Origin: Armatimonadota bacterium
Lineage (GTDB): Bacteria; Sysuimicrobiota; Sysuimicrobiia; Sysuimicrobiales; Sysuimicrobiaceae
Assembly (NCBI GenBank): GCA_031460175.1
Contig: JAVKGW010000002.1
Location: 186,001-250,000 of the forward strand
Length of the DNA: 64,000 nt
Reading direction: 5' to 3'
This document shows, one piece after another, positions 58,666 through 64,000 of this stretch (its first letter is position 1; every line of letters starts with the position of its first letter). The notes below the pieces were generated by a model. That model was not told where the DNA came from. It searched no databases and saw only the letters and a program-made list of their open reading frames with translations. The translations under genes and the position numbers were made by a program.

Positions 58666-60867
58666 TCAGCTGGAAACGCGCTCCACGCGGTAGACGTCAG
58701 GCACCTTGCTGATGCGCTGCATCACCGTGGTGAGCTGGCCCACGTTGCGGATGTCCAGCACGAGATCGATGACGCCCACCTTGTCCCGCCGAACCCGGGC
58801 ATTCACGCTCCGCACGTTCGTCCGGGTGTCCGCCACCGCGCTCAAAACATCCTTCAAGAGGCCCACCCGGTCCAGGGCCTCGATCTGGAGCTCCACGGGA
58901 TATGTGCCGTCCTCGGACGGCTCCCACTCCACCTCCAACAGCCGTTCGGGCTGCCGGCGGAGGTGCTGGAGGTTGGGACAGTCGCGGCGGTGGATGGTCA
59001 CTCCCCTTCCCCGGGTGATGTAGCCCACCACCGGGTCCCCCGGCAGGGGCATGCAGCAACGGGCCAGGGTGGTGAGCAGGTTGTCCGCGCCCCGGACCCG
59101 GAGCCCCCGGGCCGTGTGCACGGGCGGCGGGGGAGCCGGCGCGTGTGCGGGGGGGGTCTCCGGGACCGGCGTTTCAGGCCCCTGCAGGGCCTGCACCACC
59201 TGCAGGAGGGTGAGGTCGCCGTTCCCCAGGGCCGCGTAGATGTCCTCCTCGGCCTGCAGCTGCAGCCGCTCCGCCGCTTGGCGCAGCCGCTCCGTTTTCA
59301 GCAGCTGCCCGAGCAGCCCCAGCCGGCGCAGCTCCCGCTCCAGCAGCTCCCTTCCCCGGGCGATGTTCTCCTCCCGCTGCTGCTTTCGGAACCACTGCCG
59401 GATCTTGGTCCGGGCGTTGCTGGTGACCACGAACCCCAGCCAGTCCCGGCTGGGTCCCGGGGAGGTCTTCGAGGTGAGGATCTCCACGATGTCCCCGCTC
59501 TGCAACCGGTAGCTCAGGGGGACCAGGCGCCCGTTCACTTTGGCGCCCACGCAGTGGTGGCCCACATCCGTGTGGATGCGGTACGCGAAGTCCACGGGCG
59601 TGGCCCCGCTCGGCAGGTCGATCACGTCCCCCTTGGGGGTGAAGACGAAGACCTCGTTCTGGAAGAGGTCCAGCTTTACGGACCGCATGAACTCCCGGGC
59701 GTCCTTCATCTCCTGATGCCACTCCAGGAGCTGCCGCAGCCAGCTCAGCTTCTCCTCGAAGGCCCGATCCCGGACGCCCACGCGGCCCTCCTTGTACCGC
59801 CAGTGGGCCGCGATCCCGTACTCCGCCTCCTGGTGCATCTGGTGGGTGCGGATCTGCACCTCCAGGGGCATCCCCCGGTAGATCACCGTGGTGTGCAGGG
59901 ACCGGTAGCCGCTGGGCTTCGGGTTCGCGATGTAGTCGTCGAACTCCCCCGGAATGGGCCGCCACAGGGAGTGGATGACCCCCAGGGCCGCGTAGCAGTC
60001 CTTCACGTCGTCCACGATGACCCGAACCCCCAGACGGTCGTAGACGCGGCTCAATCCTTTCCCCTGATACTCCGGTCGCTGCAGCTTCCGGTAGATGCTG
60101 TAGGCGTGCTTGGGACGTGCGGTGATGTTCGCGCGATCCACCCGGATCCCCGCCCGGTTCAGCTCCCGGTACAGCTCCTCCTTCACGCTCTGCAGGATCT
60201 CCTCCTGCTGGGCCTGGGCCTCCCGCAGGGCCTCCGTGATCTCCCGGTACGCCTCCGGCTCCAGGATGGCGAAGGAGAGGTCTTCCAGTTCGTTCTGCAG
60301 CTGCCCGATGCCCAAGCGCTTCGCCAGGGGCGCGTAGATCTCCAGGGTCTCCTGGGCCTTGCGGCGCTGGTGGTCCGGAGGCATGGCGGCGATGGTGCGC
60401 AGATTGTGGAGCCGATCCGCCAGCTTGATGAGGATGATGCGGATGTCCTTCGCCATGGCGAGGAGCATCTTGCGGAGGTTCTCCGCCTGGCGTTCCTCCC
60501 GGCTCTTCCACTGGATCCTGCCGAGCTTCGTGACCCCGTCCACCAGGGCGGCGATCTCCTCCCCGAAGGTCTGGCGGATCTCCTCGAGGGTGTGCTTGGT
60601 GTCCTCGGGGACGTCGTGCAGCAGTCCCGCGGCCACGGTCACGGGATCCAGGCGCAGGGAAGCCAGGATCTCCGCCACCGCGATGGCGTGGTGGACATAG
60701 GGTTCCCCGCTGCGCCGGTACTGCCCCTCGTGCGCCTCCGCGGCGAAGGCATAGGCCCGCTGCAGCAAGGCAAGGTCCGCCTGCGGATTCGCCTCCCGGA
60801 CCCGTTCCAGAACCCGCTGCATCTCCGGCGGCAGCGCCGCTTCCGCCCTCAGCTCCTCAAGCGCCAT
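58666..60867 (-). CDS. rel: Bifunctional (p)ppGpp synthetase/hydrolase (Rel)
   Basis: A 733-residue long RSH. HD hydrolase domain (HAIAVAEILASLRLDPVTVA, LLHDVPEDTKHTLEEI), synthetase domain (ARPKHAYSIYRKLQRPEYQG, YDRLGVRVIVDDVKDCYAAL, IANPKPSGYRSLHTTVIYRG), TGS (DVIDLPSGATPVDFAYRIHT), zinc-finger-like CCMPLPGDPVVGYITRGRGV with HRRDC, and C-terminal ACT. Intact HD residues argue for hydrolase activity too. The ppGpp link to CodY (GTP sensing) is noteworthy. ATG 60867 lies 7 nt after recJ; the longer in-frame start is inside recJ. Confidence 0.95.
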   Translation of the reverse strand: MALEELRAEAALPPEMQRVLERVREANPQADLALLQRAYAFAAEAHEGQYRRSGEPYVHHAIAVAEILASLRLDPVTVAAGLLHDVPEDTKHTLEEIRQTFGEEIAALVDGVTKLGRIQWKSREERQAENLRKMLLAMAKDIRIILIKLADRLHNLRTIAAMPPDHQRRKAQETLEIYAPLAKRLGIGQLQNELEDLSFAILEPEAYREITEALREAQAQQEEILQSVKEELYRELNRAGIRVDRANITARPKHAYSIYRKLQRPEYQGKGLSRVYDRLGVRVIVDDVKDCYAALGVIHSLWRPIPGEFDDYIANPKPSGYRSLHTTVIYRGMPLEVQIRTHQMHQEAEYGIAAHWRYKEGRVGVRDRAFEEKLSWLRQLLEWHQEMKDAREFMRSVKLDLFQNEVFVFTPKGDVIDLPSGATPVDFAYRIHTDVGHHCVGAKVNGRLVPLSYRLQSGDIVEILTSKTSPGPSRDWLGFVVTSNARTKIRQWFRKQQREENIARGRELLERELRRLGLLGQLLKTERLRQAAERLQLQAEEDIYAALGNGDLTLLQVVQALQGPETPVPETPPAHAPAPPPPVHTARGLRVRGADNLLTTLARCCMPLPGDPVVGYITRGRGVTIHRRDCPNLQHLRRQPERLLEVEWEPSEDGTYPVELQIEALDRVGLLKDVLSAVADTRTNVRSVNARVRRDKVGVIDLVLDIRNVGQLTTVMQRISKVPDVYRVERVSS

Positions 60868-60874
60868 TCCCGCT

Positions 60875-63800
60875 TCACCCCACGGGAGGAACGGCGGGGC
60901 CAGCCACCGCCTCCAGGACCTCCACGGCACCCGCCCGCCGCATCCACCGGATCCCCTGCTCCAGGGCTCGCCGGATCTCCTCCCCTTCTAGAAACCGGTC
61001 GGATGCCGCCAGATCTGCCCGCTTCTGCCCCGGGCACACCCGCCACTCCCCTCCGACCTCCTCCACCACCCCGAGCTCCGCGAGGATGGCGAGCGCCGCG
61101 GGGAGGCTCTCCGCGGAGGTCACGGGTCGGACGCCCGCCCGAAGCCGCCGGTACGCCCGCGCCAGGGTCTTCCGCGACGGATACGCCTCCTCCCACGCCT
61201 CCCGGACCCGCCTGCCGTCCTCGGCATCGAAGGCTAGATGCAGTGTAACACGCTCCCGGCCCGATGCGGCACACGCGGCCTGGAGGAGGAAGAGGGCTCG
61301 GGGTTGTGGGACGCGCCACACCACGTGATCAGCCCGTGCACTCCCTTCCTCGGGCGGGGGACCCACGCACACCAGAACCTGCAGGCGGCGGAGGGAGAGG
61401 AGGGCGTGCAGGCCGACCCGGAGGGGTTGCGGGAGAAACGGGTGATCGTAGGCGATGCCCACCTCCGGGAACCGGGCCTGTAGGACCTCCGCGGTCCGCA
61501 CCGCTTCCTGAGGGCTCGCCTCGAAGACCACGACCCGCTCTCCGAACCCCACGAGGTCCTCGATCAGGTCCGCTCCCCGTCGGCCCCGGCAGTCGTCGAG
61601 AGTCACCTCCAGGCGTGCCCCACCCCCGTACTCCGAGACCCATCCCGGGGGCGGTTCCGCGTGTGTGGACCACAGGTTCCACCGCACGGGGCCAAGGTGC
61701 CGGAGCGCCATCTCCGGAAGGAGCAGGGACTCCCCCACGAGCACGTCCTGAGGGGTCAACAGATCCGGGTGGCGGGAGAGGTAGGAGAAGGTGGTGAAGA
61801 CCACGGGCGCCTGGGCCGTACCGGGTTCCCTGAACATCCCGTGCATGCAGGTCACCCGGATCCCGCACGCCCACAGCTTCGGACCCCACTGCCTCCATCG
61901 GGCATCCGCGAGGTCATGGGTGGGCCAGACGCACACCACCCTCCTTCCCCGACAGGCCTCCTCCGCGATCCCGACCAGCAGCACCTTCCACAGACCCCGC
62001 CCAGGGCCGCCCACGAGGGCTCCCTTGCCCTGCCGCGTCGCGTCCAGCCATCTCCGGGCCCGGTCCACAAGCCTCTCCCCCTGGAGGAGTCGGCTCTCCA
62101 GCGCATTCTCCCCTTCCGACCCGCTCTCCCCCACCTCCCGCTCCACCCGGATCCGCACGCGGTCCGATCCCGCCTCCACCACCACGGCCCGATAGGACCC
62201 GCCCCGATCGAGGTCCGGGGCGATCTGGCCTGCCACCTCCGGGGGAAGGAAACCGAGGGAACGTCCGTCTTCCAGGTTCAGCCGGACCGCGTACGGGTCC
62301 AGGGGATGGTCCGGCTCCCGGTGGAACCGGAGGACCCGTCCGTCCGCCAGGTCGGGGGTCCCCACCGCGCAGGGGATCTCCAACTCGAACGAGCGGGACC
62401 GCACCCACCCCCATCGATCCGGTTCCCAGTACTCGCTCGCCCGTCCGAACAGGCGCTCCAGAACCCGCTCCGTCTCCGGGCAGGTCCTGGCGAGCCGGAG
62501 GTCCTGGATCAGGAGCCGAACCCCACCCCGATCGGGCCAGGGGGTCGGTTCCACGGAGGCCGCCACGTCCACCCGCGGGGCAGAAAGGGCGAGGGGCTCC
62601 GCCCGCTCCCCTAACCCGAACGCGATGGCTTCCACCCGGCGGGTGCCCTGAAGAAGCCAGAGCTGGAGGTGGGCGGCGTCGTTGCCCACCAGACGGCTGT
62701 CCACCACCTGGAGGCCGCGCAGGGAAAACAGGGGACGGGGATTTCCCACTCCGTGCGGTTCCAGGCTTAGCAGCGCCTGGACGAGCCGGTCATCGAGTTC
62801 CGCGAGCGAGAGCTCCGCGTCCAGGTCCAGGGTGGGGACGAGGTCCTCGGGGCGGATCCGGGACCGTACCGCCTCCTCGAACCGCTCCCGGAAAGCCTCC
62901 AGGTGCTCGACCGGAAGACTCAGGCCCGCGGCCTGGGCATGGCCTCCGAAGGCCTCCAGCAGCGGGGCGCACGCCCTCAGGGCCTCCACCAGGTTCACCT
63001 CCGGGACGCTGCGGCCGCTCCCCCGGGCTCTCCCTCCCTCCACGCTCAGCAGGACGGTAGGCCGGTAGAAGGCTTCCCGGACCTTGCCCGCGGCGATCCC
63101 CAATACCCCCGGGTGCCACTCCCCCCAGAGGACCAGGGTGGCGCGGCTCCCGGGATCCAGGCTCCGCGCGGCCCGCACGGCGGCCTCCACCACCTCCTCC
63201 TGCAAGCGCTGGCGCCTCTGGTTGAGGGCCTCCAATTCCGCGCTCAGCCGTCCCGCCTCCTCCGGATCCTCCGTGAGGAGCAACTCCAAAGAGAGCCGGG
63301 CGGACTGGAGCCGGCCACTCGCGTTCAGGCGGGGAGCCAGGCGCCACACCACATCGTCCGCGGTCACGCGGTCGGACAAGCCCGCGACCCGCAGGAGGGC
63401 CTGCAGCCCCGGCAGGGGGCTCGTGGGCATCCGGGCGAGGCCGACCTTGGCGAGGATCCGGTTGGGGCCCACGAGCGGCACCACGTCCGCCAGGGTTCCG
63501 ATGGCCGCCAGCTCCAGGAGCTCTCCGGTTCGTCCCATCCCTCGTCGGGACCACAGGAGTCGCATCAGCATCCACGCAAGCCCGGCGGCGCAGTACTCCC
63601 GAAACCCCGTCCCGACCAGCTTCGGGTCCACCAGGGCGTCCGCATCGGGCAGGAGCGGGGGAGGCTCGTGGTGGTCCACCACCACCACCCCCATTCCCAG
63701 GCGGCGGGCGAGGGCGACCTCCTCCACCGCGGCGATCCCGCAATCCACGGCCACGAGCAGGCGGGCACCGCCCGCGGCGATGCGCTCCACGGCCTGGGCG

Positions 63801-64000
63801 GAGAGCCCGTATCCCTCCTGGAGCCGGTGGGGGATGTACGGGATCACCGAGGCGCCCAGCCCTCTAAGCCCACGGACGAGGATGGCGCAGGCGCAAACCC
63901 CGTCCGCGTCGTAGTCCCCGTACACCACGATCGGGTCCCCGCGGGCCACCGCCTCCTCCACCCGGGAGGCCGCCTGCGCCATCCCCGGGATCTGTTCGGG
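60875..64000 (-). CDS. recJ: RecJ exonuclease with HIRAN and degenerate helicase-like C-terminal extension (5' end outside window)
   Basis: More than 1,035 residues; the frame is open to the window edge (PEQIPGMAQAASRVEEAV reads through), so the N-terminus is missing. DHH phosphoesterase motifs DYDADGVCACAI, DHHEPP, LAPRLNASGRLQSARL and DHHA1 GGHAQAAGLSL identify the 5'-3' ssDNA exonuclease of RecF repair. After an OB-like region comes a HIRAN-like segment (FELEIPCAVGTPDLADGRVL ... FHREPDHPLDPYAVRLNLED ... LGFLPPEVA). The last about 400 residues look helicase-like, but the P-loop is altered (GGPGRGLWK). RecJ in Bacillus has about 786 residues. Confidence 0.9.
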   Translation of the reverse strand, partial: PEQIPGMAQAASRVEEAVARGDPIVVYGDYDADGVCACAILVRGLRGLGASVIPYIPHRLQEGYGLSAQAVERIAAGGARLLVAVDCGIAAVEEVALARRLGMGVVVVDHHEPPPLLPDADALVDPKLVGTGFREYCAAGLAWMLMRLLWSRRGMGRTGELLELAAIGTLADVVPLVGPNRILAKVGLARMPTSPLPGLQALLRVAGLSDRVTADDVVWRLAPRLNASGRLQSARLSLELLLTEDPEEAGRLSAELEALNQRRQRLQEEVVEAAVRAARSLDPGSRATLVLWGEWHPGVLGIAAGKVREAFYRPTVLLSVEGGRARGSGRSVPEVNLVEALRACAPLLEAFGGHAQAAGLSLPVEHLEAFRERFEEAVRSRIRPEDLVPTLDLDAELSLAELDDRLVQALLSLEPHGVGNPRPLFSLRGLQVVDSRLVGNDAAHLQLWLLQGTRRVEAIAFGLGERAEPLALSAPRVDVAASVEPTPWPDRGGVRLLIQDLRLARTCPETERVLERLFGRASEYWEPDRWGWVRSRSFELEIPCAVGTPDLADGRVLRFHREPDHPLDPYAVRLNLEDGRSLGFLPPEVAGQIAPDLDRGGSYRAVVVEAGSDRVRIRVEREVGESGSEGENALESRLLQGERLVDRARRWLDATRQGKGALVGGPGRGLWKVLLVGIAEEACRGRRVVCVWPTHDLADARWRQWGPKLWACGIRVTCMHGMFREPGTAQAPVVFTTFSYLSRHPDLLTPQDVLVGESLLLPEMALRHLGPVRWNLWSTHAEPPPGWVSEYGGGARLEVTLDDCRGRRGADLIEDLVGFGERVVVFEASPQEAVRTAEVLQARFPEVGIAYDHPFLPQPLRVGLHALLSLRRLQVLVCVGPPPEEGSARADHVVWRVPQPRALFLLQAACAASGRERVTLHLAFDAEDGRRVREAWEEAYPSRKTLARAYRRLRAGVRPVTSAESLPAALAILAELGVVEEVGGEWRVCPGQKRADLAASDRFLEGEEIRRALEQGIRWMRRAGAVEVLEAVAGPAVPPVG

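Follow-up and report, generated by a model that had tools for sequence, protein, structure and literature searches.

The gene at positions 60,875–64,000 (reverse strand) of the 64,000-nucleotide stretch of Sysuimicrobiota DNA analyzed here, referred to as the window, almost certainly encodes a RecJ protein with a HIRAN domain and a dead helicase core of the RecQ type in its C-terminal half. The initial annotation of this DNA had proposed that a RecJ was joined to HIRAN and to a non-hydrolyzing SF2 module, and such an architecture proved to be conserved across the phylum.

The RecJ nuclease and its locus

The reading frame runs past the end of the window, which contains residues 66–1106; in the assembly, the full protein has 1106 amino acids, the first 65 being encoded outside the window. 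It matches TIGR00644 with an E-value of 7e-132 and is the only RecJ match that the genome gave. Residues 89–565 are those of an ordinary RecJ. The DHH domain (residues 89–234, 63,494–63,931; PF01368, E = 1.2e-22), the DHHA1 domain (residues 358–444, 62,864–63,124; PF02272, E = 3.6e-15), and the RecJ OB domain (residues 458–565, 62,501–62,824; PF17768, E = 3e-21), all on the reverse strand, each scored over the Pfam cut-off. In an alignment with the Deinococcus radiodurans RecJ, catalytic motifs I–VII were all found, with YGDYDADG, VDCG, DHH, and ADVVPL intact in the DHH domain and GSGRS and GGH intact in DHHA1. By sequence, this is the bacterium's sole RecJ, a 5′→3′ ssDNA exonuclease, with a C-terminal extension. 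The extension of about 550 residues noted previously after the DHH and DHHA1 domains is real, but the OB domain had been overlooked, so that it comprises 541 residues (566–1106). A sequencing or reading frame artifact was ruled out, as the frame is also open in a sister genome (G036), where the C terminus is 73% identical.

The genes are ordered SecD, SecF, recJ, RelA/SpoT, FabI, Dtd, and amidase, with SecF and SecD upstream of recJ and outside the window. We take this order to resemble secDF-recJ-apt-relA-dtd of Bacillus, and because of this resemblance the window gene looks like the orthologous recJ. The RelA/SpoT gene (58,666–60,930, reverse strand) lies downstream; counted from its first GTG, it shares 56 bases (60,875–60,930) with the 3′ end of recJ, although a start codon further in may abolish the overlap.

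Further variations were seen in other RecJs. L112:3-2648 (G273) carries a DEDDh/RNase_T 3′-5′ exonuclease (PF00929, E = 3e-38) whose insertion point in the DHH domain falls after the DHH motif and before motif IV; the same insert was read by eye in L163:545-2854 (G234) and L164:549-2840 (G222), and seemingly degenerate inserts occupy the same place in L161 and L162. At G359:C1:703998-705554, a RecJ match lies within a stop-free frame of 3628 amino acids.

A HIRAN domain follows the OB domain

The HIRAN domain extends over residues 602–687 (62,135–62,392, reverse strand; PF08797, E = 5.4e-8). The Pfam match, at residues 613–684, reached 33 bits against a curated cut-off of 24.7 (E = 3e-9 in the whole-genome scan). 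In the AlphaFold2 model of the window protein (mean pLDDT 88, pTM 0.85), the region forms a barrel of six strands and one helix, a layout that matches the HLTF HIRAN (PMC4666394). Both the family match and the predicted fold thus bear out the HIRAN claim of the initial annotation. HLTF HIRAN structures were matched at 5e-10 by the profile of the relatives and at only 0.05 by the window sequence alone.

In HLTF, the HIRAN pocket accommodates a dinucleotide, its cavity is flanked by Tyr72 and Tyr93, and full functional loss was seen only in the Asn90/91 double mutant (PMC4666394). In the window genus, the loop between strands one and two (VTFEGR in most relatives), which aligns with Tyr72, is deleted, while the equivalents of Asn91 and Tyr93 in the window protein are His630 and Leu632. 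Among 33 sequences, the loop deletion and the replacement of the Asn of EPxNP by His are confined to the two genomes of the window genus; the relatives retain the loop, and the 31 members outside the genus all have the Asn. The Tyr93 position is variable across the phylum, being mostly His or Arg, and therefore the ligand preference may differ from that of HLTF even in canonical members.

Selection was evaluated in nine pairs as dN/dS per segment by the NG86 method, which gives approximate values for GC-rich genes. Outside the window genus, HIRAN had the lowest ratio of all segments in every one of eight pairs (0.04–0.13), with 0.08–0.23 for the RecJ core and 0.10–0.45 for the halves of the pseudohelicase described below. 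In the window-genus pair, HIRAN had the highest ratio (0.65, against 0.27 for the core), which we attribute to the loop deletion and the Asn-to-His change found there. Every segment remained under 1, and by this sequence measure the C-terminal extension is under purifying selection. Because the pseudohelicase evolves faster than HIRAN and the RecJ core, it may matter more for its shape than for specific contacts.

These observations divide the earlier proposal that HIRAN serves the exonuclease as an end-recognition device. For the phylum it is plausible, and end capture by HIRAN in the relatives may be entertained tentatively. In the window species, capture of 3′ ends, at least in the HLTF fashion, is improbable, since the loop of the HLTF pocket is lost and no segment is under weaker constraint in the genus than HIRAN.

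A RecQ-type core without ATPase motifs

The HIRAN domain is followed by a RecA1-like half (residues 696–860, 61,616–62,110) and a RecA2-like half (residues 861–1005, 61,181–61,615), both on the reverse strand and both of RecQ-type sequence; the former is supported by hhalign of the phylum profile against RecQ and by the AlphaFold2 model. When a profile of 23 relatives was compared with PDB, RecQ 4tmu (5e-22), human RecQ4 (7e-20), and the RecQ core 1oyw (3.5e-19) ranked ahead of Hel308 and the DEAD proteins. Comparison by hhalign of the phylum profile with RecQ cores from nine genomic loci gave an E-value of 1.2e-21; the alignment spans 328 columns and reaches from motif 0 to past motif VI. A Pfam Helicase_C match was obtained in 15 of the 23 relatives, and the window protein alone gave no match to the Pfam DEAD family. 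Foldseek with the model of one relative (L036, AlphaFold2, mean pLDDT 90) returned RecQ and WRN cores soon after the RecJ-family structures (1oyy, target-normalized TM 0.49); the window protein, which is more diverged, gave weaker matches to Hel308 and WRN.

The two strings that had been pointed out as motif relics, GGPGRGLWK (residues 729–737, 61,985–62,011) and DVLVGE (residues 817–822, 61,730–61,747), do lie at the P-loop and Walker B places, respectively: The model has a strand (724–728), a loop, and a helix (736–748) at the first and a strand (818–823) at the second. The Lys of GGPGRGLWK, however, is not the Walker lysine, whose position is taken by Leu735. None of the 33 phylum sequences has Lys in the Walker A column or Glu in the DExH column, although GPGRG is retained in most; in motif VI, where the window protein has ACAASGR for GRAGRDG, the first Arg is likewise absent from all 33 and the second is present in two. 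The RecQ-type motif YxHxGLPxRxR, here YDHPFLPQPLR (residues 916–926, 61,418–61,450, reverse strand as for the two relics), corresponds to YHxGMxxxxR of RecQ, and its His918, Leu921, Pro922, and Arg926 are invariant in all the sequences. Because the Walker A Lys, the DExH, and the motif VI Arg are all absent, we regard the core as a pseudohelicase and not as a RecQ helicase, in line with the non-hydrolyzing SF2 module suggested initially. Its sequences indicate that the RecQ-type core lost all its ATPase motifs before the phylum diversified, and with no ATPase motif it could not translocate in the known way.

Distribution of the architecture

CSP1-3 has been described as a phylum with a single order (PMC11604079). 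In 41 of the 43 Sysuimicrobiota/CSP1-3 genomes examined, the C-terminal half was found, and the two without it are 69%–72% complete. HIRAN occurs at the site of the match in the same 41 genomes and in each of the 23 relatives profiled. No RecJ with HIRAN was detected among ∼150 genomes of other families, 14 of which have HIRAN elsewhere. The RecJ-HIRAN link anticipated from the single gene is therefore a conserved one within the phylum.

Only one of the 43 genomes had a RecQ over the TIGR00614 cut-off (G028, C17:25725-26768), and there it lies inside an open frame of 1800 amino acids. The window genome has RecO; among PDDEXK_1 matches no AddAB-sized nuclease was seen, since the sole one lies in a frame of 265 amino acids. 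An intact RecJ-helicase fusion was not found outside the phylum in the ∼150 genomes of other families, in a second sample of 150, or in 61 and 85 genomes of two phyla. Outside Sysuimicrobiota, RecJs near 1000 amino acids were seen only in the phylum of genome G255 (probably Thermotogota, which is a guess), likewise without intact motifs. The sample around “Bacillus sp. 2B10” (G043), intended as a Bacillota center, behaves like Pseudomonadota. Within the open-access articles of PMC, and hence as a weak absence, we found no paper in which RecJ and HIRAN occur together, nothing relevant on a RecJ-RecQ fusion, and no article on the S. aureus RecJ structure 8y30.

Relation to the C-terminal domain of long RecJs

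The protein ends in a winged-helix-like tail (residues 1006–1100, 60,896–61,180, reverse strand), which ordinary long RecJs also have in their C-terminal domain. We compared the tails of RecJs from the phylum of G244 (∼870 amino acids), from that of G255 (∼1000 amino acids), and from a Bacilli set comprising Neobacillus and Enterococcus (788–804 amino acids; PF10141) and two further genomes. In hhalign, where the E-values are those of single comparisons of shallow alignments, the Sysuimicrobiota profile matched them at 1.7e-26, 9e-12 (362 columns), and 5e-6, respectively. The tails of the G244 phylum matched the Bacilli set at 1e-17 and the RecA2 of RecQ at 1.4e-9, and a profile of PF10141-type tails matched the RecA2 halves of XPB (5e-7) and RecQ (2e-6) in PDB. 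The Bacilli set by itself gave no match to RecQ (hhalign, E = 0.4), so the link between its tail and RecQ rests on the chain. Similarly, the window protein does not reach the PF10141 cut-off in Pfam, its homology running through a chain of profile-profile matches. The reading of the C terminus as the ordinary long-RecJ domain only, foreseen in the initial annotation as what would defeat its proposal, is therefore correct for residues ∼861–1100, which are homologous to that domain, but the domain accounts for neither HIRAN nor the RecA1-like half.

These matches suggest that PF10141, the C-terminal domain of long RecJs, is a vestige of this same dead helicase. As the winged-helix-like tail is shared, we infer common descent rather than repeated fusion. 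A tentative scenario, to which we give slightly less than even weight, is a single, very early fusion of RecJ and RecQ, after which the helicase became inactive and was gradually reduced. Sysuimicrobiota, with HIRAN added, and the G255 phylum would have kept the inactive RecQ in full, while the C-terminal domains of the RecJs of Bacillus, Staphylococcus, and perhaps Deinococcus would be leftovers reused as docking platforms. For the Deinococcus domain, HHpred gave no homolog in a 2015 study (PMC4663267). In another RecJ, of 865 amino acids (L102, G227:C2:157500-161500), the tail has a RecA1-like stretch, and no RecA2 was recognized by eye.

Possible role of the extension

In the RecF resection pathway, the classic pairing of helicase and nuclease is that of RecQ with RecJ. 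RecJ degrades ssDNA in the 5′→3′ direction and, according to work cited in PMC4846377, the E. coli enzyme needs RecQ to start at blunt or 3′-overhang ends. A RecQ without ATP hydrolysis could not unwind DNA, but its shape could still hold a junction. The dead core and the winged helix might then form an ATP-independent platform that grips a duplex or junction beside the nuclease and also holds partner proteins, as the C-terminal domain of the Deinococcus RecJ does with SSB, through SSB-Ct (PMC4846377), and HerA (PMC4663267). In most of the phylum, HIRAN would take the complementary strand by its 3′ terminus, letting the 5′ strand enter RecJ, while in the window genus, with its eroded HIRAN pocket, the platform probably works without 3′-end capture. 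We put the chances of such a platform for DNA and partners at about even, the Deinococcus domain serving as an analogy.

The extension could instead serve protein docking only (SSB, HerA-like, or other partners), DNA contact by HIRAN and the pseudohelicase being functionally unimportant. The two ligands of the Deinococcus domain, the fact that the tail is the part common to other long RecJs, and the eroded pocket of the window genus all favor this reading. It nevertheless seems rather unlikely, because the strong constraint on HIRAN, the tightest of any segment in each of the eight pairs from outside the genus, and the retention of the Asn91 equivalent in all 31 members there fit ligand binding. 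The model of the initial annotation, in which the window HIRAN recognizes 3′ ends while tracking along DNA falls to the helicase relic, so that RecJ is targeted to stalled forks, draws on the presence of HIRAN and on the dinucleotide held by that of HLTF (PMC4666394). It has little chance of being right for a HIRAN without the first loop, with His and Leu at the Asn91 and Tyr93 positions and the highest dN/dS in its genus, next to a core with no ATPase motif for tracking; the targeting to stalled forks is speculation.

Two readings concern the core itself. Loss of all the ATPase motifs, and of the HIRAN loop in the window genus, might suggest that the C-terminal half is a functionless, decaying relic, but this is very improbable for a region retained in 41 of the 43 genomes and with a pseudohelicase dN/dS of 0.1–0.45. 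Least credible, and practically negligible, is an active motor with non-canonical motifs: The P-loop topology and the GPGRG string persist in most members, yet the Walker lysine, the DExH Glu, and the first motif VI Arg are missing from all 33 sequences and the second Arg from all but two. The platform beside the nuclease is the reading we prefer. A natural RecJ with a dead RecQ, in a phylum almost always without a RecQ over the cut-off, makes it possible to test which functions of RecQ are structural and which depend on the motor. It further suggests where the C-terminal domain of long RecJs may have come from, and its HIRAN ties a eukaryotic fork-remodeling device to bacterial end resection.

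Comparison with known systems

With the bacterial RecJs of E. coli, Thermus, Deinococcus, and S. aureus (8y30), the window protein has in common the DHH, DHHA1, and OB domains, the catalytic motifs, and the single copy; its 541 further residues hold HIRAN, a full pseudo-RecQ, and the winged-helix-like tail. The HIRAN shares with those of HLTF and Rad5 the EPxNPxDxxA core, the barrel, and, as in HLTF, a position ahead of an SF2 core, but it is partnered by a dead RecQ and an exonuclease instead of SNF2-RING, and its pocket is eroded in the window genus. The pseudohelicase retains the fold and motif order of the RecQ and WRN cores, the HxGLPxR motif, and, in 18 of 33 relatives, the motif 0 Gln, whereas it lacks the ATPase motifs, is fused to RecJ, and gives no Pfam HRDC match. 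PF10141 (ssDNA-exonuc_C), from Bacilli and others, has a homologous RecA2-like half and winged-helix-like tail, to which the window protein adds a RecA1-like half and, before it, HIRAN. Finally, the RecJ tails of the G255 phylum, in which no HIRAN was found, share with the window protein both the full-length degenerate helicase and the winged-helix-like tail.
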